Below, piece by piece: positions 1,187-22,523 of a stretch of DNA of 24,309 nt. The position numbers and the translations under genes were made by a program. The notes under the pieces were generated by a model, which worked only from the letters and a program-made list of their open reading frames with translations, made no database searches and was not told the DNA's origin. Position 1 is the first letter of the stretch; each line of letters begins with the position of its first letter. The stretch comes from a virus: the IMG/VR virus record IMGVR_UViG_3300037493_000551, positions 1 through 24,309 of that record; one strand, given 5' to 3'.

Positions 1187-1615
1187 TTACTCCCCTTTAT
1201 TAGAAGTAATAATATTAACCTTTATCTCAGATACAGATTCACCTTTTGATGTGGTATCAACTCTCTCAGTCAGGTTGTTTAGTCTTTGAGTTATGGATGG
1301 ATTGTATTGACCAACCATACCACCTTCAATCTGATCATGTCGGATGGCTTCCTCTATGCGTGTGCAGATTGTGGCATATTCAGAATATCTATTCTCCTTA
1401 TTTGAAAAATAATCAGTTACTGTACATCCATTATCAGCAGCATAACTTCTGAAACCTACTTGAGTCAATGGCCTTTCTAATGGTATAGCAGTTGCCTCAC
1501 CAGTTTTATTAGAAAGTGAGTATTGATATCTAGGATTAGCTTTGCACCAATCTCTGTAAGATACAAATAGTTCCCACATTTTCTCAGGAGTCTCTATGTA
1601 TTTATGCTTCGGCAT
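1187..1615 (-). CDS. terS: Terminase small subunit, gp3-package-like
   Basis: This 142-residue protein probably recognises phage DNA and loads the large terminase. The N-terminal MPKHKYIETPEKMWELF, the aromatic-rich YRDWCKANPRYQYS and the PLTQVGFRSYAADNG region (about residues 49-63, a likely helix-turn-helix) resemble small terminases of the P22 gp3-package type that I recall from Bacteroidota phages. The segment at 107-125 (PSITQRLNNLTERVDTTSK) matches the usual short C-terminal tail of the group. It lies directly upstream of the large subunit and overlaps the end of the preceding gene by 14 bases, so the two are translationally linked. The position next to terL strengthens the call. Confidence 0.85.
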   Translation of the reverse strand: MPKHKYIETPEKMWELFVSYRDWCKANPRYQYSLSNKTGEATAIPLERPLTQVGFRSYAADNGCTVTDYFSNKENRYSEYATICTRIEEAIRHDQIEGGMVGQYNPSITQRLNNLTERVDTTSKGESVSEIKVNIITSNKGE

Positions 1616-1865
1616 CTTCTTGAGTTACCTTCTTAGTGCGTTTCTTTTTAACTGGCACGTCTTCCACTGCTGTGTATTCAATTACAGTTGGCTCAGGAGC
1701 TGTAGCAGTCACTACCTCTTCAAAGATGTGCTTAAGTCCAATTGTCTGATAGTATTTCACTTTGCTTAGGTCAAGGTTATCTACTACGATAGTCTTAGTA
1801 CCTTTAAATCTGTCATAGATTTTCACTGTTTTACCTAAGAATTCTGGTTTAATTGTGTATTCCAT
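1602..1865 (-). CDS. Small protein of unknown function heading the terminase unit
   Basis: I do not recognise this 87-residue protein. The first 50 residues look like a short beta-rich fold (FLGKTVKIYDRFKGTKTIVVDNLDLS), followed by an acidic/Thr-rich linker and a Lys-rich tail (PVKKKRTKKVTQEDAEA). It overlaps the small terminase start by 14 bases and is the first gene of the terminase unit, 17 bases downstream of a copy of the TACAATATAG late motif. A DNA-contacting or packaging accessory role would suit the basic tail and the position, but that is inference only. Confidence 0.7.
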   Translation of the reverse strand: MEYTIKPEFLGKTVKIYDRFKGTKTIVVDNLDLSKVKYYQTIGLKHIFEEVVTATAPEPTVIEYTAVEDVPVKKKRTKKVTQEDAEA

Positions 1866-1869
1866 AATA

Positions 1870-2409
1870 TTAGTCTTTATACCTATATTGTATCTCTTTT
1901 ATATTTTGTTTTATTTCTTTGATTAGAAAGAATGCCGATGTGCTATTGATGTTAAAGTACTTAGCCAGTGCAGTCTGAGTTGAGTGCCCTTTGTCATAGT
2001 ATGCCTCAAATATAATCTTTTTTATCCTATCATCTAGTGAATTTCTGTAGATTTCAACCATTGCCTTCTTGAAATTGTAGCTATCCTCTAGATTTACTTT
2101 GTGCTCAATGTCAGATGGATCATCTAGTGAGTCACCTAAGTATTCGTGTGACCTGTAAATATCATCTTTCTTTGTCCTTGAGCCTTGCGTCCAGATTAGC
2201 TCGTACTTGATTGTGTTGAGTAGATAGCTCTTAGCCTTATCTTGTGTTACATTCTCCATTTGTAGCTTAGCACAATGAATGTAAGCATTATTTATCACAG
2301 CATCGGCTTCAATTGAGCTAGGTATTTTAAGTCGCTGAATGAAGTGCTTTGTGTATTTGAGCACCTCTGTGTAGTTATTCTGCAAGTATTGATCAAGCAT
2401 TCTTTTCAT
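1870..2409 (-). CDS. Sigma-70-family-like protein, possible late-gene regulator
   Basis: This 179-residue protein has the layout of a small two-domain sigma factor. A helical segment at about 34-85, including DAVINNAYIHCAKLQ and KSYLLNTIKYELIWTQGSR, resembles region 2. After an acidic linker (93-110), residues 125-175 (DDRIKKIIFEAYYDKGHSTQTALAKYF...) look like a region 4 helix-turn-helix. The family would bind host RNA polymerase and redirect it. It is encoded just before the terminase unit, as late regulators often are. It overlaps the end of the preceding small gene by 17 bases. The similarity is weak and read by eye; a non-sigma DNA-binding protein is the alternative. Confidence 0.6.
   Translation of the reverse strand: MKRMLDQYLQNNYTEVLKYTKHFIQRLKIPSSIEADAVINNAYIHCAKLQMENVTQDKAKSYLLNTIKYELIWTQGSRTKKDDIYRSHEYLGDSLDDPSDIEHKVNLEDSYNFKKAMVEIYRNSLDDRIKKIIFEAYYDKGHSTQTALAKYFNINSTSAFFLIKEIKQNIKEIQYRYKD
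1883..1892 (-). promoter_or_regulatory. Late-motif copy A (TACAATATAG)
   Basis: On the minus strand this reads TACAATATAGGTAT and lies inside the last codons of the sigma-like gene. It shares 10 of 10 bases with the copies at 15150, 17722 and 22061. If TACAAT is a -10 box, transcription would begin near 1880, giving the terminase unit a leader of about 15 bases. No shared -35 box is visible. Confidence 0.5.
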
Positions 2410-5260: not shown

Positions 5261-5291
5261 CAAATGTAATAATATTTTTTAGTTGTGCAAC
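5261..5291 (-). promoter_or_regulatory. Bacteroidota-type promoter for the recombination operon
   Basis: On the minus strand the -33 element GTTG (5288-5291) is separated by 19 bases from TACATTTG (5261-5268), which matches the TAnnTTTG -7 consensus. Transcription would begin near 5255, just ahead of erf (ATG at 5239). Confidence 0.7.
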
Positions 5292-6120: not shown

Positions 6121-6948
6121 TTAATTAAATGAGCACACACATTTGTCATCATCTGTGCTTAAATCCATTGTTAAAGTTTGTGGTAGTTGTGATAATTTAA
6201 CTAAATAATTTATAGACTTATGTCCTCTAAATGATGTGCTATTGTATTTCTGTTCTTGTTCATTGTACCAGTCAATAAATCGTGTGCCAAATCTAATATT
6301 TTCAATTAAATTATTGTCAGATTTTTTCCAGCACAGCTCACAATTGCCATACTTACCATGTAGATTTAATTTAAATTGTTCTTTATACCAGTATTTATTT
6401 AAGTCTAATTGAGATACTGGTGATTCAAAATCTGTTAATAAAGGAAATATTCTTTTTTTATCCTCTTTTATCTCAGCCCAGCTTATTCTTTTAGGCATGT
6501 CTTCTTTTCTAAATCCTATTGCTATTTTATAATTATTAACTCCAAAAATATCATTGCACAATTTTTTAGCTGGTGTTGTTTTTAAATTCTCAGAACAATA
6601 TGGTGCATTTTGATTCGGCAATCCTTTAAAAATACCTTTAGTCTTATGTTCAATCATGTTTGAAAAAGTTTTGGCACTCATGTCTAACTCATCCCATTCA
6701 ACAATATTATACTTTATACCAGTTCCTAAGTCATTAGAATAAACACCTTCAATCTTTATTAAAGGAATTTGCCAGTATTTTTCAATGTCTTTTAAGAATT
6801 GTATTGTTTCAGGCCGTTCCATTCCAGTATTGCAGAACACATAAACCTTTTTAAAATCTTTATACTTATCACTCAATTGAATGTGACGTGCCATCATAGC
6901 AGATGACCTACCACCTGAGATGGTGACCATTAGGTTTTCTTTTGTCAT
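6121..6948 (-). CDS. Phosphoadenosine phosphosulfate reductase-like protein
   Basis: A 275-residue member of the PP-loop ATPase/PAPS reductase superfamily. The PP-loop is VTISGGRSSAMM (residues 8-19), followed by VYVFCNTGMERPETIQFL (about 35-52). Later come YCSENLKTTPAKK, a central GFRKEDMPKR and a CxxC-like GNCELCWKKS segment, and the protein ends DDDKCVCSFN. Phages often carry such genes; proposed roles include sulfur metabolism and nucleic-acid thiolation, and the true substrate here is unknown. No dnd-type DNA phosphorothioation partners are visible. It overlaps the primase-helicase stop by four bases, so it belongs to the replication operon. Confidence 0.8.
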   Translation of the reverse strand: MTKENLMVTISGGRSSAMMARHIQLSDKYKDFKKVYVFCNTGMERPETIQFLKDIEKYWQIPLIKIEGVYSNDLGTGIKYNIVEWDELDMSAKTFSNMIEHKTKGIFKGLPNQNAPYCSENLKTTPAKKLCNDIFGVNNYKIAIGFRKEDMPKRISWAEIKEDKKRIFPLLTDFESPVSQLDLNKYWYKEQFKLNLHGKYGNCELCWKKSDNNLIENIRFGTRFIDWYNEQEQKYNSTSFRGHKSINYLVKLSQLPQTLTMDLSTDDDKCVCSFN

Positions 6949-9365: not shown

Positions 9366-9396
9366 CAAATGTAATAATAAATTTTAATTATCCAAA
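9366..9396 (-). promoter_or_regulatory. Bacteroidota-type promoter for the primase-helicase
   Basis: On the minus strand TTTG (9393-9396), a 19-base spacer and TACATTTG (9366-9373) match the Bacteroidota consensus exactly. Transcription should begin near 9360, leaving a leader of about 80 bases. A GCGTGACAAA repeat abuts the -33 box and may be an operator. Confidence 0.8.
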
Positions 9397-9397
9397 T

Positions 9398-9575
9398 GCG
9401 TGACAAACGTGGCAACTATGGGACAACTTCAAAAGTAGTTGTCACGCCTATAAGCTATACTGCTATTGAGTTACAGCAAAAGCGTGACAACTAGACAACT
9501 TTTTTTGGGGGTGTCCCCCTTGTTTTTTTAAAAAAGCTAGCTACCCCCTATAAGAAAGCTTGTCAGTTGTCACGC
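9398..9575. repeat. GCGTGACAACT repeat cluster, origin or operator candidate
   Basis: Copies of GCGTGACAACT or its complement lie at 9398-9407 (ends AAA), 9437-9447 (complement), 9482-9492 and 9565-9575 (complement). Shorter GACAACT copies lie at 9422-9428 and 9494-9500. The last full copy encodes the C-terminal ERDN of the DnaA-like gene. Orientation alternates. Iterated sites between a DnaA-like protein and the replicative helicase suggest a replication origin or an autoregulatory site. Apart from these repeats, the leader hairpin, the promoter and a plus-strand hairpin, the 9279-9562 gap holds no gene that I can support. Confidence 0.6.
9507..9529 (+). terminator. Plus-strand intrinsic terminator-like hairpin
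   Basis: GGGGG (9507-9511), a TGT loop and CCCCC (9515-9519) are followed by TTG and seven T. In this orientation it is a textbook terminator, but no plus-strand gene precedes it. It could end an antisense RNA across the repeat cluster, or be an origin structure. Confidence 0.45.
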
Positions 9576-9946
9576 TCAATGTACAAACCTTGCTCAATTC
9601 TCTCTTTAATCATTCTTAAGTAAGATGTGTTACTGCATTTCATAACATCCTCAAAGATAGAGTACTTCTCTACTTCTCGGGGTGCATCTGGTGGATAGAG
9701 ATAGTCTTTAATAGGTGCAATAATGTCATCATAGAGCTTGTCACAGTTTTGGAACTGCTTGTCTATCTTTAAGCCATTCAATACAGTTGCATGATGTTTA
9801 TCCAGCATTCTACCTATCTGACTTAGATTCATATTTAACTTGTACAGCTCAGAGAAAATGTAGTCTCGCTTGTAAACTAGCTCTCTTTGTCTACCACTAT
9901 CGCATAGGTTGTGGAGCTCTATCATGTATTTTATTTTCTTGATCAT
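9563..9946 (-). CDS. DnaA domain IV-like DNA-binding protein
   Basis: A 127-residue protein. Residues 40-60, NLSQIGRMLDKHHATVLNGLK, closely follow the DnaA domain IV signature, in which IG..F..+.HSTV contacts the DnaA box. There is no AAA+ ATPase part, so it is not a full initiator. The remainder is helical and unassigned. It could bind the GACAACT-type repeats that start at its own 3' end and help start replication or repress the primase-helicase promoter. The ATG overlaps the preceding stop by ATGA; a second Met at residue 8 is a less likely start. Confidence 0.65.
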   Translation of the reverse strand: MIKKIKYMIELHNLCDSGRQRELVYKRDYIFSELYKLNMNLSQIGRMLDKHHATVLNGLKIDKQFQNCDKLYDDIIAPIKDYLYPPDAPREVEKYSIFEDVMKCSNTSYLRMIKERIEQGLYIERDN

Positions 9947-12936: not shown

Positions 12937-13502
12937 TAGAGTATAAGTATTGAATTGTTATAACCATTTTCTCTCATCCCTCCGCAAGGACATCCACTAT
13001 GACATTGACCAACACAATTGCAAGAACACTGGTCAATCATTGGTCGAAGATCAGTGTCTCTGTTAGTGGCATCTGTGAAGCCAGGATACAAGTCTTTATT
13101 TGCTATTAAGTATCTGATTAATCTTTGCTCATAAAATGAAGCCTTTTGTGCATAGTGCTCCATTCCGAATGCTACCTCACTTCTACTCACAGATGCTGAG
13201 AAGTCACCGAATTGAGTCTGCAATCCTTTATTTTTTAGCTGATAAGTCAATCCAAAGATAGCATCCTCTGCTGACCTCCAAGCGATCACTGGTTGAATGA
13301 AGGTTACAAGTGTCTCCTCATCATTGGTCAGTGTCTGAGCATTGTAAGCGGCAAGTAAATAATTGTAGTAAGTAGTACCTAAGATAGGCATCACTCTCAA
13401 TTGTGCCTGAGTAGCTATGTATGGAGTTACATCTGTCACATCTACATTCGCTGTGATAGGTGTATTTACTTTGAGATAGGTCTCTGTTATAAAGTAGATC
13501 AT
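12936..13502 (-). CDS. Head-tail connector-like protein (DUF6712-like) with Cys-rich tail
   Basis: A 188-residue protein. The opening MIYFITETYLKVNTPITANV, the AQLRVMPILGTTYYNYLLAAYN region (33-54), LTNDEETLV and PVIAWRSAED match DUF6712, a family found next to portal genes in Bacteroidota phages and thought to act as the gp6-like head-tail adaptor. The C-terminus is odd: CSCNCVGQCHSGCPCGG packs seven Cys and one His into 17 residues, suggesting metal binding or disulfide locking. It overlaps the portal stop by ATGA. Confidence 0.75.
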   Translation of the reverse strand: MIYFITETYLKVNTPITANVDVTDVTPYIATQAQLRVMPILGTTYYNYLLAAYNAQTLTNDEETLVTFIQPVIAWRSAEDAIFGLTYQLKNKGLQTQFGDFSASVSRSEVAFGMEHYAQKASFYEQRLIRYLIANKDLYPGFTDATNRDTDLRPMIDQCSCNCVGQCHSGCPCGGMRENGYNNSILIL

Positions 13503-14812
13503 AGTGCTGGTGTTTCAATTGGTATAACATCACCACCTTCAATAGGAGGCAAAGATGCAAGTGAGCGAACTTCATTAGGAGTCATTGCATTAAGTACTTT
13601 TGTAGCTACCAATGGACTAAGTGAGTTGATTGCATCAGCTGTTTTACTAGCGTCACCTTCAATCTCTACAATAGTCTCATTGATTATCTGGAAGTTGTTG
13701 ATTGTGTATTCACCTGGTATCTTAGCAATCTCTAAAAGCTCATTAATTATCTCTTCTACCTGAGTTCTTAATGGCATAACTACATTTTTCTCAAAGATAA
13801 CATAGGCTTGCTTGATGTCAGCACCTCCACCTAGTGAGCCAGTAGTACGAACACCCATAAGGATAGGGTCAATTGTGTGAGCAAAACAAATTTGTTCAGT
13901 GTTCAATGCAGATGCCTCGTGAAATAGCTTATCATTGCCATTTGTAGGTAGTGATTCAATCTTTGGTAGTTGGTCCGCTGAGTTAGCAAAGAATGCAACT
14001 GCCTTACCAGCATTAGCCGCACCTTTCAACCTATCAATTGTGTGCTTGATCATTGATTTCTCCTCTTCTGATTGTGGTCTCTTAGGAAACATCATAGCAA
14101 AAGAAGGGAACACACTATTTTGAATGTTAGATTTTGCAAAGTAGCTCAACTCACCTGATAGGAAAGCAAAGTTAAGAGCACTTGTGTACTGTGGTAGCGG
14201 ATACCACTCCTGACCTAGTGTCATAATTTCATAAACATACAACTGCTCAAGGTCTGAATTTGTCGGATGGTATTTTTTTATAGATGTTACGTCAATTCTA
14301 GCGGCCCAGTCATCACATAAGAAGTAAGTGACTTTGTCTCTTGCAATTCTTACCTTCTCAGGTGATACATTGTATATCTTATATAGCTCTTTCTTAGCAT
14401 TGTAGCACAACTTGAAATAAACTCTATGGTGAACAGTCAACTGCTGAGCTATTGCTCTTTCTACTTTGCCAAGTTTAATTTTCTTTTCAAATGTATAGAG
14501 CTTGAGCTTGTCCTCATTGGTCATTCCTTCACTCTTAAGAACGTATCCACCACCTACTACTGAGTTGGTTTTAAAGTCAACTATTGCTCCATGTAAAGGT
14601 GATGTATAGTAGAGCTGATTTAATAGCTCAGGAAACATATTGTCTTGACCAAATGGAATATAGCCAGCTATCTGGTATCTACCATTAACATAGGGGAGTG
14701 ATAAGTTAGCATCACCTACTCTACCAAATGGTGTAGAGAAAGACTGATAGCCTTCTACTACTTCTGTTGTTGTCTGAGGCTTAGTGCCTATGAATCTGTT
14801 ATACCAAGCCAT
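13499..14812 (-). CDS. Portal protein
   Basis: A 437-residue protein expected to form the dodecameric ring through which DNA enters the head. The strongest marks are in the C-terminal half: NAGKAVAFFANSAD, PTNGNDKLFHEAS, ICFAHTIDPILMGV, and GSLGGGADIKQAYVIFEKNV followed by PLRTQVEEIINELL. These are typical of PBSX/HK97-like portals from Bacteroidota phages. The N-terminal part has YYTSPLHGAIVDFKTNSVVGGG, matching the portal clamp region. It overlaps the upstream structural gene by TAATG and the connector by ATGA. The length fits the family. Confidence 0.9.
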   Translation of the reverse strand: MAWYNRFIGTKPQTTTEVVEGYQSFSTPFGRVGDANLSLPYVNGRYQIAGYIPFGQDNMFPELLNQLYYTSPLHGAIVDFKTNSVVGGGYVLKSEGMTNEDKLKLYTFEKKIKLGKVERAIAQQLTVHHRVYFKLCYNAKKELYKIYNVSPEKVRIARDKVTYFLCDDWAARIDVTSIKKYHPTNSDLEQLYVYEIMTLGQEWYPLPQYTSALNFAFLSGELSYFAKSNIQNSVFPSFAMMFPKRPQSEEEKSMIKHTIDRLKGAANAGKAVAFFANSADQLPKIESLPTNGNDKLFHEASALNTEQICFAHTIDPILMGVRTTGSLGGGADIKQAYVIFEKNVVMPLRTQVEEIINELLEIAKIPGEYTINNFQIINETIVEIEGDASKTADAINSLSPLVATKVLNAMTPNEVRSLASLPPIEGGDVIPIETPAL

Positions 14813-15147
14813 TAGTCATAAATTGAATTAATAATTGGACCAGCCACTACAAGCCTTCCCTCTTCAATCATGTTCAATCCAATTGGATCTAATGTAGGAG
14901 TAGAGCTTTCATAGACCTTATATCTGTACTGACCTTTAATAAAGTCAATGTCTATAGGGTCTTCAATAGTGAATAGGTTAAATCTTGAAGGCCACAATGA
15001 AGTGTCAGTACCTTGCCAGTAAATTGGGTTAGGTGTTGTGTTAAACTCATCTTCAAACTCAAACAAATAGTAAGCATTTGATAGTGTTGTGACCTCAGTT
15101 AAGGTCAATACAAAGCTATTAGTTGAGTCTTTCTCAAGATATATCAT
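14812..15147 (-). CDS. Small structural protein of unknown function, probably leaderless
   Basis: A 111-residue, mostly beta-stranded protein (MIYLEKDSTNSFVLTLTEVT...; later YYLFEFEDEF and GQYRYKVYESS). Such proteins accompany portal genes in Bacteroidota phages; I know no specific function, and a minor head-tail or decoration role is plausible. It heads a transcription unit that begins right after the terminator at 15187-15206, with the late motif exactly placed to start RNA at the A of its ATG. Confidence 0.7.
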   Translation of the reverse strand: MIYLEKDSTNSFVLTLTEVTTLSNAYYLFEFEDEFNTTPNPIYWQGTDTSLWPSRFNLFTIEDPIDIDFIKGQYRYKVYESSTPTLDPIGLNMIEEGRLVVAGPIINSIYD

Positions 15148-15149
15148 AC

Positions 15150-15159
15150 CTATATTGTA
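15150..15159 (-). promoter_or_regulatory. Late-motif copy B, predicted leaderless promoter
   Basis: The minus strand reads TACAATATAGGTATG. TACAAT (15154-15159) is followed by six bases and then the A of the ATG at 15147. It lies between a terminator and the portal/lysis unit, where a promoter is required. Confidence 0.6.
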
Positions 15160-15178
15160 CTTAGAGAAAATTTTAATT

Positions 15179-15206
15179 AAAAAAAAGCCTTACATTTCTG
15201 CAAGGC
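15179..15206 (-). terminator. Intrinsic terminator after the tail tube gene
   Basis: On the minus strand GCCTT (15202-15206) pairs with AAGGC (15187-15191), extended by further inner pairing, and is followed by eight T. It ends the capsid unit that begins at 17719. Confidence 0.8.
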
Positions 15207-15232
15207 CTCTTTATCTATGGAAGAAAGATAGA

Positions 15233-15769
15233 TTATGGAGCTGGTGTAGTCAAAGTAGTCACTACTGACTCTTCAATTTGGTAAGCTAAAAACTCATTCT
15301 CTGCAAGCAAAGTGATTGAATACTTAGAACCATCTGCACGAGCTGTTCCTGAGCCTTCACCAGTAGCAGTCAACTGCAAGTAAGGAAAGAACCAGTATAA
15401 GCCATTAGCATCTTGAACAATACCACTCAAGTACTGTTGACCAGAGCCTAATACTTTAATAGCACTAGACTTAACAGATTCACGTCTGTGGAACATCAAG
15501 TTAATAGTCTGAGTCACAAAAGAAGAACCATTGATCAAGTCAATATTTGAATCTTCAGTGTAGCTTGAAGTATTGCGTCTGAATTCAAACTCAATAAATG
15601 GATCAGCTCCACCTACTAGGTCTAAGGCATCAATTATGTAGTCATCAGCTGGGTCAACTGACAATGTAGTCATATCAACATTATCTTGTTGATTAACAAA
15701 AAATTTATAAATACCACCAGTGTTGTTGTCACAACTTTTCAAGATGGTTTGGAGTGCATCACATGCCAT
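15233..15769 (-). CDS. Probable major tail tube protein
   Basis: A 178-residue beta-rich protein. It opens MACDALQTILKSCDNNTGGI and later has IEFEFRRNTSSYTEDSN, then TQTINLMFHRRE and KYSITLLAENEFLAYQI. Similar proteins with a CD...CDNN.GGIYK start follow the capsid gene in Flavobacterium-type phages and are taken as tail tube subunits. It is flanked by two hairpins: one upstream that could reduce its expression below that of the capsid protein, and a strong terminator downstream. The tail tube call rests on position and a pattern from memory. Confidence 0.6.
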   Translation of the reverse strand: MACDALQTILKSCDNNTGGIYKFFVNQQDNVDMTTLSVDPADDYIIDALDLVGGADPFIEFEFRRNTSSYTEDSNIDLINGSSFVTQTINLMFHRRESVKSSAIKVLGSGQQYLSGIVQDANGLYWFFPYLQLTATGEGSGTARADGSKYSITLLAENEFLAYQIEESVVTTLTTPAP

Positions 15770-15791
15770 GTCTTTTTATGTTTTAAAAGTG

Positions 15792-15820
15792 AAAAAATAG
15801 GGAGGCATTGCTACCTCCCT
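15792..15820 (-). terminator. Intrinsic terminator or attenuator after the capsid gene
   Basis: On the minus strand AGGGAGG (15814-15820) pairs with CCTCCCT (15799-15805) around an eight-base loop, then ATTTTTT follows. The next gene has no visible promoter, so partial readthrough probably sets the capsid to tube ratio. Confidence 0.7.
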
Positions 15821-15828
15821 TTTATATC

Positions 15829-16761
15829 TTAGATGTAGAATGCATTGTATAACACTATCTCAGTAGGGTTTGTGTAGTGAAAACCAGCTTTCAAGTTTGC
15901 ACGAGTTCTCAAGTAAGGCTCAGCTACAGTGTCAGATAAGTTCACAGCTCTCAATGCTTTTGAATCTCCCTCTGCATCAAATGCATAGATAAGATTAGTT
16001 CTTAAAGTCAATAAGATAGTGTTGTCAGGCATACCTTCACACACTACTACATTGATTCCTAAGAAAGTCAACCCTAATGGTAAAGTCACATAAGTCTGAG
16101 TGTTACCTTGTGCTGCTTTCAACTCATAAGCATTAGCTACATTTGTTGATACATACAATCTAAGGTCAGCTTTTTTACGTGAAATTGTATTAGGAGCAGC
16201 ATTAACAACTGATTCTAATACAGTCAATACATTTGATGTAGTGATAGCACCTGAGTACAAACCGATAATATCAGTATCATAGAACATTGGAAATAAGTAT
16301 CCAGTACAAAGACCTAACAATGGATCCTCAGATGCATCATTACCTTGCCATCTTAACAACTCTAAGTCTTGACCAATAACATTAGCCATTTCATTCCAGT
16401 AATAAGACATGAAAGATGCAACTGTGAAGTCACCATTTGAGCCTTGAGACATTTGAAGAGCTAAGAAAGACTGCTCTAAGTCAAATTGACAAAGTTGAGC
16501 CATAGCTGACAATGCACACACGTCAATGTCAATAGCATCTAATGAATCTGTAGGAGCTGAAAAGTTACAAGTAGATGCTTGCAATAAGCTACCAAAAGTA
16601 ACATTAGCTAATTTTGTTTTGCTCTTGATACCTGGTAAAGTTCTGAAGTTGTTAGCAATGTCAGGACTTGATAAATAAGCTCTTGAATAGAACTCATCTG
16701 GGTTTGCACACAAAAGTGCATTTGTTTCGATGTCTAGGTCGAATTTAAGGTTACGTGTCAT
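15829..16761 (-). CDS. Major capsid protein, HK97 fold
   Basis: A 310-residue protein that builds the head shell. It opens MTRNLKFDLDIETNALLCAN and has SCNF-type Cys residues near 63-70, an E-loop region, then LRLYVSTNVANAYELKAAQ, LPLGLTFLGINVVVCEGMPD and TILLTLRTNLIYAFDAEGDS, ending with TEIVLYNAFYI. The P-domain pattern with a target-loop strand and a C-terminal strand ending at the last residue is typical of HK97-type capsid proteins from Bacteroidota phages. It lies two bases after the protease/scaffold gene and is followed by an attenuator hairpin, as expected for a highly expressed product. Confidence 0.85.
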   Translation of the reverse strand: MTRNLKFDLDIETNALLCANPDEFYSRAYLSSPDIANNFRTLPGIKSKTKLANVTFGSLLQASTCNFSAPTDSLDAIDIDVCALSAMAQLCQFDLEQSFLALQMSQGSNGDFTVASFMSYYWNEMANVIGQDLELLRWQGNDASEDPLLGLCTGYLFPMFYDTDIIGLYSGAITTSNVLTVLESVVNAAPNTISRKKADLRLYVSTNVANAYELKAAQGNTQTYVTLPLGLTFLGINVVVCEGMPDNTILLTLRTNLIYAFDAEGDSKALRAVNLSDTVAEPYLRTRANLKAGFHYTNPTEIVLYNAFYI

Positions 16762-16762
16762 T

Positions 16763-17719
16763 TTATTTTGATTTTGAAAATTTTACAAATTCTTTGAACT
16801 TATCATGCGAGCTCAACGCCATTGGTGCTACTTCTTCTTCAGTCTCAATTGCAATTGATTCCTCAATTTGATTTTTCAATCCAGCTATCATAGCAATCAC
16901 TGAATTCATGTGCTCCTCTAATAAAGGACGTACAATAGCAATGATAGCCTCAGCATCTACAGCTGGGTCAATAGCCATAGCTACTTCTTCTGTTTCAGCT
17001 TCTTCTGTAGCTTGAGCCTCAGCATCAGCCACTTCTTCTTCCACAGCTGGATCTGCTGATAACTCAGCCTCCATCTCTGTAGGTACATCTTTAATCTCAA
17101 TAACTTCTCCGTCTTTTACAACATAGATTTTATCCTCGATTAGATGCTCTCCGTCAGGTAATTTCATAGTATTTAAATTTAATTGTTCCGATAATTTCAT
17201 ACCTAAGAATCCCTCAATTGAATAGCCTACTTGACCTGACTCAACAAGATCATCATAGTATGCTCTGTCAGTCACTTGACTTGTTAGCATCAATGTGCCC
17301 TTAGGGGTTTCAATACCATAAGTAGTGAATGCTTTGTCAGTCTCAGGGTTGTCTACTATCCAAGCCTCTAATATGTAAGCTGGGACTTTCTTAGTAGTGT
17401 CATGCTCTAAGTTAAAGATGTCTTTGTTCTGTAAATTCTGCATGAATTTAGAATGGATTTGTTCAATCACCTCAGCTGAGAATTGAACGTCGTACTCCTC
17501 ACCATCCTCATCTTTACGATAGATGTTCATTGGAATCATTGCTGGTGCAACTACTCTCATCTTAACATCGTCCTTGAATGTCATAGCTACATGAGAATTG
17601 AATGCCATACCTTTAACCTTAATAGCAGGCTTAGAAGTAAAGGCAATCATTTCTATGCCTAAGTTTTCACCATCGGCATACTCATCCTCTATTGTAATTT
17701 TGTAGATAGGTCTATCCAT
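16763..17719 (-). CDS. Prohead protease (XkdF-like) fused to a scaffold domain
   Basis: A 318-residue protein. The N-terminal domain resembles XkdF-type prohead proteases: VVAPAMIPMNIYRKDEDGEE (57-76), FNLEHDTTKKVP with the likely catalytic His106, LEAWIVDNPETDKA (117-130) and GQVGYSIEGFLG with the likely nucleophile Ser167. From about 205 to 260 the chain is extremely acidic and Ala/Glu-rich, followed by a helical region (PLLEEHMNSVIAMIAGLKN) and a basic end FKEFVKFSKSK. That suits a scaffold that binds capsid and is then self-cleaved. The ATG is predicted to be the 5' end of the mRNA. Its promoter lies in the 44-base divergent gap with the plus-strand genes. Confidence 0.85.
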   Translation of the reverse strand: MDRPIYKITIEDEYADGENLGIEMIAFTSKPAIKVKGMAFNSHVAMTFKDDVKMRVVAPAMIPMNIYRKDEDGEEYDVQFSAEVIEQIHSKFMQNLQNKDIFNLEHDTTKKVPAYILEAWIVDNPETDKAFTTYGIETPKGTLMLTSQVTDRAYYDDLVESGQVGYSIEGFLGMKLSEQLNLNTMKLPDGEHLIEDKIYVVKDGEVIEIKDVPTEMEAELSADPAVEEEVADAEAQATEEAETEEVAMAIDPAVDAEAIIAIVRPLLEEHMNSVIAMIAGLKNQIEESIAIETEEEVAPMALSSHDKFKEFVKFSKSK

Positions 17720-17721
17720 GC

Positions 17722-17731
17722 CTATATTGTA
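17722..17731 (-). promoter_or_regulatory. Late-motif copy C, predicted leaderless promoter
   Basis: The minus strand reads TACAATATAGGCATG. TACAAT (17726-17731), six bases, then the A of the ATG at 17719. It drives the protease-capsid-tube unit away from the divergent chaperone pair. Confidence 0.6.
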
Positions 17732-17739
17732 AAAAGTAT

Positions 17740-17747
17740 TATATTTG
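17740..17747 (+). promoter_or_regulatory. Plus-strand TAnnTTTG -7 box
   Basis: TATATTTG matches the Bacteroidota -7 consensus and would start RNA about 11 bases before the ATG at 17764. No good TTTG lies at the right distance upstream, so this is a weak or regulated promoter. It is the only one seen for the plus-strand pair. Confidence 0.5.
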
Positions 17748-17763
17748 TTAAAAATTAAAATCT

Positions 17764-18309
17764 ATGGTAAATATTTTAGGCTTTGATGTACCTAACCAAC
17801 TGAATGAGTTGAGTGTACAGCAATTTGAAACAATCACAACTATCCATGCTGACACTGAGCTGGATGCTATTGACAAACATTTGCAAGTGTTTGAATTCTT
17901 AGGAGTACCAGCTATTGAGTGGGATGCAGTTGAGATTGAAGAGTTCAAAGAGATAGTAAAAGAGTTCAATAACTTAGGTGATAAGCCTGATTTGATTAGC
18001 TCATTTGAAATTGATGGCTATACTTATGTGGCATTTGAAGACAGATTCAAGCTCTCAGTAAAAGACACTAAGCACATTGAAAAAATCATGCACTCGAGAC
18101 ATAAAGGTTATATCTCTGAGATGTTAGCAGTTTTATTCAAGCGTACTGACTTGACTAAGGTAGAGCACTACTCAGATGCTCACATCAAGTTGAAAGCTAA
18201 ATTAATTAGAGAATTGAAAGCTGAAATAGCTGTGCCTTACCTAGTGGAGATTGGTCAGAAGTTATCTAAATACATACCTAAGGATGCACCTACCGAAATA
18301 TTGGAGTGA
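17764..18309 (+). CDS. Tail assembly chaperone-like protein, first paralogue
   Basis: A 181-residue acidic helical protein, one of only two plus-strand genes. It begins MVNILGFDVPNQLNELSVQQ and has a second part with FEIDGYTYVAFEDRFKLSVK, HKGYISEMLAVLFKR and LKAEIAVPYLVEIGQKL. Each of these blocks has a counterpart in the next gene, so the two are paralogues. Size, acidity, location beside tail genes and overlapping arrangement with a longer partner are those of the G/GT tail chaperones that ready the tape measure protein. Direct motif support is lacking; I call it by context. Confidence 0.5.
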   Translation: MVNILGFDVPNQLNELSVQQFETITTIHADTELDAIDKHLQVFEFLGVPAIEWDAVEIEEFKEIVKEFNNLGDKPDLISSFEIDGYTYVAFEDRFKLSVKDTKHIEKIMHSRHKGYISEMLAVLFKRTDLTKVEHYSDAHIKLKAKLIRELKAEIAVPYLVEIGQKLSKYIPKDAPTEILE

Positions 18310-19015
18310 GATTGATGTATTGCAGTTTAAAGAGATTAGAGAACTGTATACAATCACTGAGGTCTTCAATAGAGAGATAGAAATACTTGCTATTTTAGCG
18401 GATGTTAGCTCTGAGGAACTTGAAGACCTTGACATTGAGGAAGTGACTGCCATGATTAGTGAGATTAAATTCGTTAACTCAGAGCCATCTAAACAATACA
18501 AGCACCAGATTGATGACTATCACTACAAGCCACTAGATAAGTTAACCATTGGTGAGTACATTGACCTTGAATTCTACTTTTCAAAAGACTATAATCAGCA
18601 CATTGGTCACATTGCATCTATTTTTTATAGACAAAAGTCAGTAAATCAGTGGGGTGTTACTGTATTTGAGCCTTATGACTTCTCACCTAGACAAAGATTT
18701 AAGCTCTTTGAAGACTATTGCATCAATGACATCTATGGTATTGTCCCTGAATTTATAGCTTTTAGGGAGAACTTCATGGAGACATACGGCAACCTATTTC
18801 ATGATGACAGTGATAGTGATGAGGAAGAGGATAAACCTACCACCTCACAAGAGTCTAAGGACTTACAGCTTAAAAAAAGTGAGATAAAATGGGGATGGGA
18901 GAGATTAATCTACTCCCTATGCAATGAAGACCTCACTAAATTTGAAGAGGTCACCAACTTACCACTTATTATGACTTTCAATATGTTAGCCATGAAGAAA
19001 GAATTAAACATCTAA
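18284..19015 (+). CDS. Tail assembly chaperone-like protein, second paralogue with extra C-terminal domain
   Basis: The first ATG of this frame is at 18284, giving 243 residues; the frame is open from 18251 with a TTG. It overlaps the first paralogue by 26 bases in the +1 frame. WSEIDVLQFKEIRELY aligns with LNELSVQQFETITTIH, HQIDDYHYKPLDKLTIGEYI with FEIDGYTYVAFEDRFKLSVK, and IASIFYRQ with LAVLFKRT. After an acidic DSDSDEEED linker it adds KWGWERLIYSLCNEDLTKF and EEVTNLPLIMTFNML, similar to C-terminal segments of phage tail chaperones I recall (a GT-like extension). The overlap allows either its own start or a +1/-2 frameshift fusion. Confidence 0.5.
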   Translation: MHLPKYWSEIDVLQFKEIRELYTITEVFNREIEILAILADVSSEELEDLDIEEVTAMISEIKFVNSEPSKQYKHQIDDYHYKPLDKLTIGEYIDLEFYFSKDYNQHIGHIASIFYRQKSVNQWGVTVFEPYDFSPRQRFKLFEDYCINDIYGIVPEFIAFRENFMETYGNLFHDDSDSDEEEDKPTTSQESKDLQLKKSEIKWGWERLIYSLCNEDLTKFEEVTNLPLIMTFNMLAMKKELNI

Positions 19016-19453
19016 GGGGTAACCTACTTTGAATCCTTCAGGTGGATCAAGTGCCTCAAATGTGTATGTGATTCTTTGATTCTTTTCAAGTATCTCAGAC
19101 ACCTTGAGAATAGGATAACGCTTTGTTAACCATTCTGTGTACTGTGAGTAGATTTCTGCTGTGATTCCTGAGCTATTAAGCTCCTCTGTGAATTGATTAA
19201 CGTAGTCTCTAGGTGTAATTACTCCACCATTCCACAAGAAAGCACCATTGTTAAGGAAAATAAAGTAGTACATTGCTATAATCTGTATCTCTAATTTTTC
19301 AAAGCTGGTGATTTTAGCATTTATTCTTATTGACTCTACCAATGTACCTTGACCAGCTACTATATCATTTCTAAGTATTCTCTTAAGTATGTTTGCCATC
19401 CTTCTTCTAGTAGGATAAAGCACATTAAATTCACCGTTATTTGCGTATGCCAT
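19004..19453 (-). CDS. Structural-region protein of unknown function
   Basis: A 149-residue protein with a basic N-terminal helix (YPTRRRMANILKRILRN) and a hydrophobic, aromatic middle (IQIIAMYYFIFLNNGAFLWNGG). The sequence suggests a mostly helical protein with partial beta content. I do not recognise a family with certainty; a tail completion or connector role would fit the position. It ends convergently with the plus-strand pair, sharing 12 bases with the end of that gene, and its start overlaps the preceding stop by TAATG. Confidence 0.65.
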   Translation of the reverse strand: MAYANNGEFNVLYPTRRRMANILKRILRNDIVAGQGTLVESIRINAKITSFEKLEIQIIAMYYFIFLNNGAFLWNGGVITPRDYVNQFTEELNSSGITAEIYSQYTEWLTKRYPILKVSEILEKNQRITYTFEALDPPEGFKVGYPLDV

Positions 19454-19668
19454 TAGTCTAGTGGTGTTGGTTGTGGTACATAAGGACTCAAAGGTATTTC
19501 TAATAAATAAGCGTATTCAGTTGGTGCTATATCCACCTCATCTGAGCTACTCAAAAATAAGAAATAAACTTCATTGATATCTTGAACAAAGTTAAAAAAT
19601 GTGTCTGCATCAAAGAATACATTTTGTAAACTTTCTGCTGTTTCTGTTGTTACTATTCTACCTTCCAT
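19453..19668 (-). CDS. Small acidic protein of unknown function in the tail region
   Basis: A 71-residue acidic protein (MEGRIVTTETAESLQNVFFD...) with the stretch DINEVYFLFLSSSDEVD and a Pro-rich end, PLSPYVPQPTPLD. No known family. It lies between the receptor-binding candidate and the 149-residue protein, with a short A/T-rich leader upstream, and shares the TAATG coupling seen throughout this unit. Confidence 0.65.
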   Translation of the reverse strand: MEGRIVTTETAESLQNVFFDADTFFNFVQDINEVYFLFLSSSDEVDIAPTEYAYLLEIPLSPYVPQPTPLD

Positions 19669-19677
19669 ATTTTTTAT

Positions 19678-20475
19678 TTAAACATTTCTACTCAAAGCCA
19701 CTTGGTAGGCATTCACCGCTGTGTAAAAGTTAGATGCTTCGGTATCTGTAAGTCCGTCACCAATTGAAGCGAAAGCACATTGTTTGGTTGTGTTATTAGA
19801 AGCAGTTCCTCCATTGTTATAAGCACCGATATACATATTGTTATTAGGTAATGACACTGAAGCTACAGTTCCGCTTATTATTTTAACTGAATTTCTCCAA
19901 CCATTAACAACATTTGAGGCGGTTCTATTAGCTATGTATAAAGCTCTCGAGTCTGTATCCACTGCACTAATATAACCTAAAAGTCCCGTTGTTGTTGCGT
20001 TAATTCTAAAGTATGATATATTAGTAAATCTTGCATTTAGATTAGTAGCTGAAGCACCTAATTGATTGCCAATTTCTACTTGATTTAAATTCACATTGCT
20101 TCTTGAATAGTAGCTAATATGGTGAGAGTTTAATAGACCAAAAGAATTTGAGTTAAAAAAAGTATTGGCAAAAGTAACCGAAGGTGTCATTCCAGTTGCA
20201 GAATGTGTCCATCCACTTGCAAATTGTAACCTAAATGCTGCATCCAAATCTCTAGGGTCTTTCAAGTTGTACTTATGACTACTTGCAGTTCCTCCTACAA
20301 TTGGATAAATAGCTTTGAACTTTGTCCAAATAGAATATCCTTTCAACGCAAGAACCAAAGTATTAATAGCATTCTGTTGTGTATTATCAGTAATTGCAGC
20401 CGCTGTTATGAACGCTTGTGCATCGGGGTCAAAAGCTGAGCCTTTTGGCATTAAAGAGATTAGGCTTCTGTACAT
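19678..20475 (-). CDS. Probable tail-associated receptor-binding protein
   Basis: A 265-residue protein, rich in Asn, Ser, Thr and Ala, matching a family I recall beside tail fibres in Flavobacterium phages: FDPDAQAFITAAAITDNTQQ, NAINTLVLALKGYSIWTKFK, AIYPIVGGTASSHKYNLKDP and later GDGLTDTEASNFYTAVNAYQ. The middle looks like a lectin/LamG-type jelly roll (TFANTFFNSNSFGLLNSHH). It probably contacts the host surface. The ATG at 20475 overlaps the fibre gene by 16 bases; an alternative start is Met9 at 20451, so the N-terminus is uncertain. Confidence 0.65.
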   Translation of the reverse strand: MYRSLISLMPKGSAFDPDAQAFITAAAITDNTQQNAINTLVLALKGYSIWTKFKAIYPIVGGTASSHKYNLKDPRDLDAAFRLQFASGWTHSATGMTPSVTFANTFFNSNSFGLLNSHHISYYSRSNVNLNQVEIGNQLGASATNLNARFTNISYFRINATTTGLLGYISAVDTDSRALYIANRTASNVVNGWRNSVKIISGTVASVSLPNNNMYIGAYNNGGTASNNTTKQCAFASIGDGLTDTEASNFYTAVNAYQVALSRNV

Positions 20476-22058
20476 GTCCCTACTATATCAAATTTAGTGT
20501 CTGTTGAATTATAAATACAACCAATATAAGTAGTCTTATTTGCAACCGTTATTGTTGGTGCAGTCACTCCTATTGCTCTGAAATTAGTTCCGTATGCTAT
20601 TGACCTTGCAGTTCCATTATCTTTAATTCTTATAATCAAAGATTGTCCCTCAACAAATGTACCAGTAGGATTAGCTAGTGTAAGTCCAACCGCCTGAGCT
20701 GTGATTGTTACAATATCATTAGTGCTAACTGCTGTTACTGTAGCACTAGATGCAACTGTCTGAACTCGTGGAGTGTATGATGCTTTGTCATTGAATGTAG
20801 TCCAATCAGCAGAGCTCAATGCACCTCTATTAGTAGCTGAGGCTGTAGGTAGATTGAATGTGTGTGTAGATGTAACTGAGTTAATTGCAAAGTCCGTTCC
20901 CGTTGTTCCCGTTGCAAAGTTCTGAACTTGGTCGGTTAAACCATTTAATGCAGTTAAGCCAGTTGAAAATGTAGTAATTATCTGACTAAGGTGATTATCT
21001 TCTGTGTGAAGTTTAATTGTCCTACCACTATGAGTTACATAGATTCTCACTGCAAGTCTATCCGTTAATGCTAAGGTAGTCTGAGGAACTGCTAATGCTG
21101 TTAAATACAAGTCTATTGCTGTGCCATTAGTAATACCCTCAGGGGTTGCTGAATTAGAAGCAATTAATGTTAATGTAGCACCGTCCCATTTATAAAGTTC
21201 AACGTAAAATGATGGTGAACCGCCGCTACTTGACGCGCTGAAATATGTTTCAAAATTCCAATTTCCAGCCGGTATTGATAACTGATTAGGGTCGTTTGCG
21301 TCAGTTATAAATGATTGAATGTAACCATTAGCATTGATTGTAAAATCTGTGCCAGTACCTATGATTGGTGTCTTATTAATTTCTTTCATTGCAACCCCAT
21401 CAAAAGTTCCTTGACTCACAGAACCATTTAAGTAATATGAAACAGATGCACCACCTCCACTTGTTGTTGGAAAGTTAGCAAGAGTGCCATCGCCACGAAT
21501 GTATTGTGTTTCAACACCAACACAAGCAACTGCTAATGTGCCAGATGTGGTTATTGGATTGCCACTCACTGTGAATGCTTCTGGCATCTCTAAATCAACA
21601 CTTGTAACAGTGCCACTTGTTAAGTCAGCTGTAGTTGCTATTGTGTAGCTACCAGTTGCCTTGTCAGGGAATTCAAGAATAACACCAGGATTGGTAGCAT
21701 TTGTATTCTGTAGTGAGCTTTCTTCAGCTCCAGTCTTCAATGCTAATGCACCAGTGTTAACTAGCTTAGCCGAAGTGCTAGCAAATGTATTCTCTGTGAC
21801 TATCTCAGTACCTGACACTGTGCTTGATTCATTAGCTCCAGCTGTGACCTCTATTGGATTGGTAGTAGTAGCTCCATTGTCAGTAACTTGCTGTAAATCC
21901 TGACTACCACCACTAGCAGAATTAATTATCTCTTGACCAGTAATTGACTTAGTGATGTAGCCAGTGCCACTAACTTCACTTATCTCTAATAAGTCTGTAG
22001 CCTCAAGGTTAGCTCCCTTAGGAGGCATTTGTGATATCTTCTGTCTGCGATATGCCAT
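20460..22058 (-). CDS. Tail fibre protein
   Basis: A 532-residue protein of low complexity, rich in Thr, Ser, Gly and Asn. The N-terminal MAYRRQKISQMPPKGANLEA and TDLLEISEV-type segment resembles the anchor of fibre proteins. Repeats typical of fibre shafts follow, including SGTVTSVDLEMPEAFTVSGN, PITTSGTLAVACVG and YIRGDGTLANFPTTSGGG. The distal part includes RGALSSADWTTFNDKASY, a pattern common in phage fibres. It is expected to trimerise and recognise the host. It heads a late unit with a predicted leaderless promoter at 22061-22070. Confidence 0.8.
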   Translation of the reverse strand: MAYRRQKISQMPPKGANLEATDLLEISEVSGTGYITKSITGQEIINSASGGSQDLQQVTDNGATTTNPIEVTAGANESSTVSGTEIVTENTFASTSAKLVNTGALALKTGAEESSLQNTNATNPGVILEFPDKATGSYTIATTADLTSGTVTSVDLEMPEAFTVSGNPITTSGTLAVACVGVETQYIRGDGTLANFPTTSGGGASVSYYLNGSVSQGTFDGVAMKEINKTPIIGTGTDFTINANGYIQSFITDANDPNQLSIPAGNWNFETYFSASSSGGSPSFYVELYKWDGATLTLIASNSATPEGITNGTAIDLYLTALAVPQTTLALTDRLAVRIYVTHSGRTIKLHTEDNHLSQIITTFSTGLTALNGLTDQVQNFATGTTGTDFAINSVTSTHTFNLPTASATNRGALSSADWTTFNDKASYTPRVQTVASSATVTAVSTNDIVTITAQAVGLTLANPTGTFVEGQSLIIRIKDNGTARSIAYGTNFRAIGVTAPTITVANKTTYIGCIYNSTDTKFDIVGTCTEA

Positions 22059-22060
22059 AA

Positions 22061-22070
22061 CTATATTGTA
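22061..22070 (-). promoter_or_regulatory. Late-motif copy D, predicted leaderless promoter
   Basis: The minus strand reads TACAATATAGTTATG. TACAAT (22065-22070), six bases, then the A of the tail fibre ATG at 22058. It begins immediately after the stop of the preceding gene. Confidence 0.6.
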
Positions 22071-22523
22071 TTAAGCTGGTAAATTAGTTATAAGAGGGAC
22101 TTGACAATTAGTCCAATTGCTAATGTCCACGTCTAAGCTCATCACCCAGCCCGCTGCATAGTCTAATAGTTGATTATTTAATGGAGTGATTGATGGTGAT
22201 CCTACAATATCAAAGCTATAATCATTGCTAAAATTAAAATAGTTGATTAGATCTACTAGAATTTGATGACAGTCTGAGAGAATAACTGTGATGTTAGCTC
22301 TATCCTTTTGAATTATGTCTAAGCAATACACCTCTAAGCTGATAGTGTTAACATCCATTGTAGTAGATGCCACAATAGGAGTAATAAATACCAAAGGATA
22401 TCTCTCATCCTTAGTGGCAAAGTTAGGAAGTTGCTCATTGAAGTCACTACCTACTTTTTTAACTTGTAAATGGTCAGTGTAAAATGCTTCAATGTGATTG
22501 ATTAGTGCCTGATAGCTTGTCAT
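22071..22523 (-). CDS. Tail terminator candidate
   Basis: A 150-residue protein. Blocks FYTDHLQVKKVGSDFNEQLP, NFATKDERYPLVFITPI, LEVYCLDIIQKDRANITVIL, SDCHQILVDLINYF and LDYAAGWVMSLDVDISNWTNCQVPL fall in an order I recall from structural proteins of Bacteroidota phages. Its size and alpha/beta pattern suit a tail terminator or completion protein, but I have no decisive motif. It overlaps the tape measure stop by four bases. Confidence 0.6.
   Translation of the reverse strand: MTSYQALINHIEAFYTDHLQVKKVGSDFNEQLPNFATKDERYPLVFITPIVASTTMDVNTISLEVYCLDIIQKDRANITVILSDCHQILVDLINYFNFSNDYSFDIVGSPSITPLNNQLLDYAAGWVMSLDVDISNWTNCQVPLITNLPA

Follow-up and report, generated by a model that had tools for sequence, protein, structure and literature searches.

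A candidate late sigma factor and its predicted bipartite promoters in uncultivated phages with probable Bacteroidota hosts

The stretch of DNA analysed here, called the window in the following, comprises 24,309 bases of the IMG/VR virus record IMGVR_UViG_3300037493_000551; it is a fragment, whose complete relatives have a size of about 29-30 kb, and it carries the element TACAATATAG at the heads of its late gene units as well as a gene for a divergent sigma-like protein of 179 amino acids. Judged from the sequence comparisons, these phages probably possess a late sigma factor with its own promoters, which would work like the systems of the phages phiEco32 and 7-11 and belong to a different family; we assign this reading a probability of about 0.82. 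Early in infection, the host RNA polymerase with the Bacteroidota housekeeping sigma factor would read the leadered early genes, including the gene of the 179-amino-acid protein at the end of the early region. Later, this protein would join the host core polymerase and direct it to five bipartite promoters of the proposed form TTNTAAY - N15/16 - TACAATATAG[G/T][T/C] - A(+1), with five co-directional copies per ~29.5 kb, one for each late unit (packaging, head and tail). The host-unlike -10 element could then be due to the phage-encoded sigma-like protein. The predicted start point is the A of the start codon, and at most sites the late mRNAs are predicted to be leaderless or to have leaders of only a few nucleotides.

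The window contains four exact copies of TACAATATAG, all of them on the minus strand (Table 1), compared to 0.24 copies expected by chance, and none of 100 dinucleotide shuffles reached four. All four copies had been reported at these positions in the original prediction, which had also noted TACAAT followed by six bases and ATG in three of them; this geometry is borne out, with two bases between the 10-mer and the ATGs at 22058, 17719 and 15147. At 1883-1892, ATA stands in the place of ATG, and the next ATG at 1865 comes 17 nucleotides past the 10-mer. The same arrangement of TACAAT and ATG was found in 285 of 316 distinct sites of clade A, the relatives with the most similar sigma-like protein (see below), these sites having been selected by the motif.

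Invariance among motif-selected sites is circular; the conservation of the element was counted by orthologous gene start and not by motif, on distinct upstream sequences, and only these ortholog-anchored counts are used for it. A search with the portal protein identified 80 relatives with 83-99% identity, in which the 10-mer occurs 145 times in forward and once in reverse orientation. Most records of ~29-30 kb have five exact copies, all co-directional, and six of the records of this size show terminal repeats of 55-127 nucleotides. The five sites are situated before the terminase unit (S4), before a gene for ~497 amino acids about 2 kb later (S5), before the gene for a 532-amino-acid protein (S22), before the head protease gene (S17) and before the gene for a 111-amino-acid protein ahead of the portal gene (S15); S5 lies in the part that is missing from the window. 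The exact 10-mer at -12 was present at S15 in 47/47, at S5 in 48/51, at S17 in 23/26 and at S22 in 32/34 cases, in total in 150 of 158 distinct sequences, and most exceptions have a changed first base or one extra base before the ATG. The bases flanking the 10-mer diverge strongly among the relatives. Hence, the motif is kept before the same genes in related phages, the opposite of the outcome that had been named as speaking against the original prediction, and its placement of the copies at the heads of late units holds for all orthologous late units, with the addition of the fifth copy in the complete relatives. The putative late promoters are few, repeated and host-unlike, and they stand at late-gene units, as is the case in phiEco32 and 7-11. 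Two records, G035 (36,745 bp) and G033 (34,193 bp), exceed the length of one genome, and a late promoter site recurs in them at a distance of ~29-30 kb; therefore, they probably represent circular maps whose assembly was over-extended.

A second box had been missed in the original prediction, which was right in regarding the -10 element as host-unlike and has to be amended in that the promoter is bipartite. The sequence TTNTAAY starts 22 or 23 nucleotides upstream of TACAAT, leaving a spacer of 15 or 16 bp, in 40/40 distinct sites at S15, 28/28 at S17, 25/27 at S22 and 35/35 at S5, and its background at these two offsets is 0.0026 per site. Three of the four copies in the window have the box at this fixed distance, and the spacing of ~16 bp corresponds to that of the 7-11 subtype. 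Taken alone, S5 is weak evidence for a -35 box, because its TTCTAA partly overlaps the TerL stop codon, and the argument is carried by S15, S17 and S22. Where the bipartite pattern was matched without the ATG geometry (26/123), in many cases in viral contigs with no apparent relationship, the matches seem to be due to chance.

The candidate for the reading of these promoters, the 179-amino-acid protein, had likewise escaped the original prediction; it is encoded in 26 of 26 records searched. Its AlphaFold model from an alignment of 33 rows reached a predicted local distance difference test (pLDDT) value of 82 and consists of helices at residues 2-74, a low-confidence, disordered linker at 76-96 and helices at 98-178, with a helix-turn-helix in the C-terminal domain. 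According to the model and the Foldseek comparisons, it combines the helical domains of sigma regions 2 and 4 with a flexible linker, and region 3 is absent, which is the architecture looked for in a sigma factor. Among the top 26 Foldseek matches in the PDB, nearly all are sigma factors or complexes that contain one, including M. tuberculosis sigma-L, E. coli sigma-32 and sigma-E, AlgU, SigH and FliA, and the probabilities reach 1.00; ranked first is 9n9q_C, one chain (subunit identity unconfirmed) from an RNA-guided transcription complex. A chain of a transcription complex was already the top match in a first AlphaFold run with 18 close rows and a pLDDT of 62. Among viral models, the top matches include an 'RNA polymerase sigma-70 region 2' protein (E 1.5e-4) and several Sigma70-ECF (extracytoplasmic function) proteins, and an ECF sigma factor of the phiEco32 group (GAP52) was found at rank 46. 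In tblastn searches of the 50,697 phage records of INPHARED, the protein had no homolog, and no match to gp36 and gp47, the sigma factors of phiEco32 and 7-11, was obtained. A scan of genome contigs revealed no sigma homolog; the portal scan of the same material gave one relative with 72% identity in a metagenome-assembled genome, through which the divergent clades were found. Likewise, no sigma homolog was detectable in two cultured Bacteroidota phages with related TerL proteins (~33%).

The divergent clades connect the protein with the promoters. The identity to the sigma-like protein of the window is 69-98% in clade A, ~41% in clade B, 45% in clade C and 40-49% in clades D-F, and relatives whose sigma-like protein is only 41-49% identical show other -10 elements (NACAATATAAGT, TATAATATA, AATATAGGT) before the corresponding genes, where the distance to the start is in most cases unchanged. 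In clade B, [GTA]ACAATATAAGT-ATG is found at S4, S5 and S22, S17 reads AACAATATAAAC-GTG, where the six-base spacing is kept with GTG as start codon, and the site at S15 is 8-9 nucleotides from the ATG. At S15 and S22 of clade C, TATAATATA is found at a distance of eight bases from the ATG, while most sites in clades D-F read AATATAGGT-ATG with TAAAC or GAAAC upstream. The pattern search for clades D and F included the +1 base, and the constant A there is not independent; the ortholog-anchored sites of clade F are. It appears from these sequences that promoter and sigma factor change together by clade with gene position and spacing largely kept, which is a correlation only and does not amount to specificity.

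The early genes carry a different type of promoter. Before the ERF gene, TTG...TACATTTG is located 29 nucleotides upstream of the ATG in 23 of 23 distinct relatives, and the assignment of TAnnTTTG promoters to early genes in the original prediction proved right where tested. Both TACATTTG and TATATTTG, the latter before the divergent plus-strand genes, fit the consensus TTTG/TAnnTTTG of the Bacteroidota housekeeping sigma factor sigma-ABfr (PMC6847099), and TACAATATAG does not. Over the whole window, TAnnTTTG was observed 50 times with 30 expected, and caution is therefore due with single occurrences. At S17, the late -35 box (17747-17753) overlaps the divergent -7 box (17740-17747) in the window clade as well as in other clades, which suggests a mutual exclusion, where the late holoenzyme could occlude the early promoter. 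Another host-type TACATTTG promoter at 9366-9373 includes the mechanically assigned TTG start (9368) of the 807-amino-acid primase reading frame; therefore, the real start of this gene is probably downstream.

Regarding the start points, the codon-wise conservation begins directly after the ATG, so these ATGs are genuine starts: in the first six codons at S17, the third positions vary with 0.357 and the first and second positions with 0.021 and 0.007, and S15 behaves alike. In the precedent systems transcription starts 6-9 bp from the element, and if this is applied here, the +1 would fall on or next to the A of the ATG. The claim of leaderless transcripts in the original prediction stands with regard to the geometry at most sites and fails as a universal rule, since leaders of 2-3, ~11 or ~15 nucleotides are predicted at a minority. 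In the subclade of the window, S4 reads TACAATATAGGTATAAAG, with the ATG 17 nucleotides on. Another subclade (e.g. records G029 and G034) opens at S4 an open reading frame (ORF) for a hydrophobic protein of 53 amino acids directly at a leaderless ATG; the subclade of the window is without this ORF, and S4 is therefore its one leadered late unit. The leaderless geometry of S4 was present in 87 of 116 distinct sequences from other subclades. In record G027, the motif at S22 is followed by ATATAAAAC and an ATG 18 nucleotides on, and the clade F motif at S5 (TAATATAGGTAAA...) has its ATG ~11 nucleotides past the predicted start, while shifts of 2 nucleotides are seen at other sites. Because the motif remains in place even at sites whose ATG has moved or disappeared, TACAATATAG is best understood as a DNA signal at the level of transcription.

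Several observations weigh against a phage sigma factor with leaderless late transcripts. The 179-amino-acid protein matched nothing in Pfam and PHROG, also when a single-sequence search was made. Its Foldseek E-values in the PDB are 0.009 or worse, and the predicted template modelling score of 0.43, which results from the free placement of the two domains, makes the interdomain arrangement uncertain. The hhalign comparison of its profile with eight ECF sigma factors has a weak E-value of 0.03; in favour of a sigma factor, the alignment extends over 128 collinear columns across both domains, and upon column shuffling only 3 of 200 comparisons scored as high and 0 of 200 aligned 100 columns. 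At S4, which lies within the sigma coding sequence, only AATAAAAC is seen at the -35 place and no clear -35 box, and the S5-like promoter of clade E can be made out only with difficulty. Moreover, S4 has a predicted leader in the subclade to which the window belongs, and leaders of 2-3 or ~11 nucleotides are predicted for some sites of other clades. Finally, the phages form a large, uncultivated, freshwater group, whose hosts are probably Bacteroidota; this phylum is deduced only, from the host-type promoters, the BT4734-like primase and TerL proteins nearest to those of Bacteroides, Parabacteroides and Flavobacterium phages. With regard to the sigma identity, the strong fold evidence and the weak but concordant sequence evidence together favour a probable sigma factor.

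It might alternatively be that a host alternative (ECF) sigma factor recognises the late promoters, or that the host housekeeping holoenzyme does so after remodelling by a phage protein, while the 179-amino-acid protein has another role. Bacteroidota have many ECF sigma factors, for example seven in Flavobacterium psychrophilum (PMC9723704), and the low sequence similarity of the phage protein to known sigma factors would agree with such a scenario. However, the TACAATATAG element differs from the TAnnTTTG box of the host (PMC6847099), and every record checked has a gene for a sigma-fold protein next to the first late promoter, with the promoter differing by clade as the protein does, which renders a host factor unlikely.

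A function of TACAATATAG as translation-initiation or mRNA-binding signal at the start codon, either Kozak-like or as operator for a translational regulator, could be considered, because the motif abuts the ATG in most copies and because Bacteroidota lack Shine-Dalgarno sequences and use the upstream sequence context (PMC6847099). We regard it as very unlikely, since the motif is retained at sites with a shifted or missing ATG (window 1883-1892, S22 of G027, S5 of clade F, and records L542, L549, L551 and L554), occurs at unit heads only and not before every late gene, and is accompanied by a second conserved box 15-16 bp upstream; furthermore, S15 follows an intrinsic terminator.

Slightly less probable still is the reading of the motif by a T7-like single-subunit phage RNA polymerase. 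Clades A and D have a TATAGG core, which is similar to how T7-type promoters begin, and the conservation is very stringent, but the early region of the window (~2.4-12.4 kb) has the BT4734-like primase of 807 amino acids as its sole long gene, all others encoding fewer than 280 amino acids, and besides the primase no gene of suitable size for such a polymerase. In addition, the G after TATA is replaced by A or C in clade B, and a conserved -35 box is not a feature of T7-type promoters. A search for the phage RNA polymerase family (PF00940) was silent, as was its control, and is not counted. That the motif is conserved by descent or coding constraint without a function of its own can be practically dismissed: the S4 copy is situated within the codons of the conserved IQYRY peptide, but at S15, S17, S22 and S5 flanking noncoding bases vary around a near-invariant element, the five sites share no other homology, and at S22 the element has been retained next to two different upstream sequences.

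The gene set of the window is that of a tailed phage, with TerS, TerL, portal, head protease, virion structural protein, CHAP/NlpC-P60 lysozyme, BT4734-like primase, ERF and exonuclease; the features discussed are listed in Table 1. A protein of 127 amino acids (9563-9946, minus strand) shows a weak match to a DnaA C-terminal-like helix-turn-helix (E 4.7e-6, under the curated cut-off) and is possibly a replication initiator. A PAPS-reductase-like gene is found inside the early region (6121-6948, minus strand). Two overlapping plus-strand ORFs for 181 and 254 amino acids (17764-19015) stand alone against the late strand behind the conserved TATATTTG promoter; neither product matched a protein family, and the layout of the pair recalls, by analogy, that of tail-assembly chaperone pairs.

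Table 1. Positions of the predicted promoter elements, the candidate sigma factor gene and the first genes of late units in the window.
Feature	Position	Strand	Remarks
179-amino-acid divergent ECF-like sigma factor gene, predicted late sigma	1870..2409	-	last gene before, and overlapping, the first late promoter
Late promoter S4, -10, TACAATATAG	1883..1892	-	in the last sigma-gene codons (IQYRY); predicted start A 1880, predicted leader 15 nt to ATG 1865
Late promoter S15, -10, TACAATATAG	15150..15159	-	predicted start = A of ATG 15147; exact in 47/47 distinct relatives
Late promoter S17, -10, TACAATATAG	17722..17731	-	predicted start = A of ATG 17719; exact in 23/26 distinct relatives, others near-identical
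Late promoter S22, -10, TACAATATAG	22061..22070	-	predicted start = A of ATG 22058; exact in 32/34 distinct relatives
S15, -35, TTTTAAT	15176..15182	-	spacer 16 bp; in 40/40 distinct sites
S17, -35, TTTTAAC	17747..17753	-	spacer 15 bp; overlaps the -7 box in front of the divergent genes (TATATTTG)
S22, -35, TTATAAC	22087..22093	-	spacer 16 bp; kept beside two unrelated upstream sequences
Intrinsic terminator, hairpin + T8	15179..15206	-	closes the preceding unit just upstream of S15; -17.3 kcal/mol, z -5.1
Early host-type -7 box TACATTTG, upstream of ERF gene (leadered)	5261..5268	-	kept in 23/23 distinct relatives
Host-type (sigma-ABfr) -7 box TATATTTG, divergent plus-strand genes	17740..17747	+	kept in 24/26 distinct relatives
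87-amino-acid gene, first of terminase unit	1602..1865	-	followed by TerS 1187-1615, TerL 2-1144
111-amino-acid gene, head of portal unit	14812..15147	-	portal 13499-14812
Head maturation protease (Peptidase_S78_2-like), first in capsid unit	16763..17719	-	
532-amino-acid probable structural gene, behind S22	20460..22058	-	

Little is known on gene timing in Bacteroidota phages, and a mapped late promoter class for them was not found in the open-access literature, though it may be mentioned elsewhere. Here, a phage regulatory system might be readable from sequence alone, with a sigma candidate, five targets and natural variants that link the divergence of sigma and promoter; if true, it would provide a regulon of leaderless late mRNAs and an orthogonal sigma/promoter pair for Bacteroidota. 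This phylum has few leaderless mRNAs: they account for 5.5% in F. psychrophilum, ~3.7% of the 5' untranslated regions in Bacteroides thetaiotaomicron are shorter than 10 nucleotides, and most leaders in Flavobacterium johnsoniae exceed 10 nucleotides. It is possible, albeit doubtful, that the promoters are built to yield leaderless late mRNAs, and that the switch from early to late genes in such a phylum also changes translation from leadered, host-type initiation to initiation on a 5'-terminal AUG.

Among known systems, the late sigma factor SaPh711_gp47 of the phiEco32-like phage 7-11 recognises promoters of the type GTAAtg-(16)-aCTA and starts transcription 6-9 bp from the element (PMC8948821). 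Both systems would share a small phage sigma factor acting with host core polymerase and a bipartite late promoter with 16-bp spacer in few copies upstream of late genes, whereas they differ in the promoter sequence, the enterobacterial host of 7-11 and the absence of a detectable sequence match between gp47 and the present protein. The sigma factor gp36 of phiEco32 uses the single-element promoter tAATGTAtA with starts 6-8 bp downstream (PMC8948821). It resembles our candidate in being a phage sigma factor that serves middle and late genes through a small number of highly conserved -10-type promoters, but gp36 promoters lack a -35 box, while the present system has one along with a predicted region-4 domain. 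The T4 late promoter TATAAATA, recognised by gp55, is without a -35 box and needs the sliding clamp as activator. Here too a phage sigma factor takes the host polymerase to compact, near-invariant late promoters; in contrast to T4, a -35 box is present and a sliding-clamp requirement is not visible in the system described here. The Bacteroidota housekeeping promoter of sigma-ABfr (TTTG/TAnnTTTG) is used by the early genes of this phage (ERF and the divergent plus-strand genes), whereas the late TACAATATAG has no TTTG and the start is predicted at the initiation codon. In Actinobacteria and Deinococcus-Thermus, leaderless genes have the -10 box about six bases before the ATG and start at its A. 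This is a housekeeping feature there, in contrast to the putative phage late regulon in a phylum with rare leaderless mRNAs. Collectively, phage-encoded late sigma factors with dedicated promoters are known, while the sequences presented here point to an undescribed, highly divergent sigma family with a new bipartite promoter and, in phages of Bacteroidota, to a late regulon that is predicted to be leaderless.

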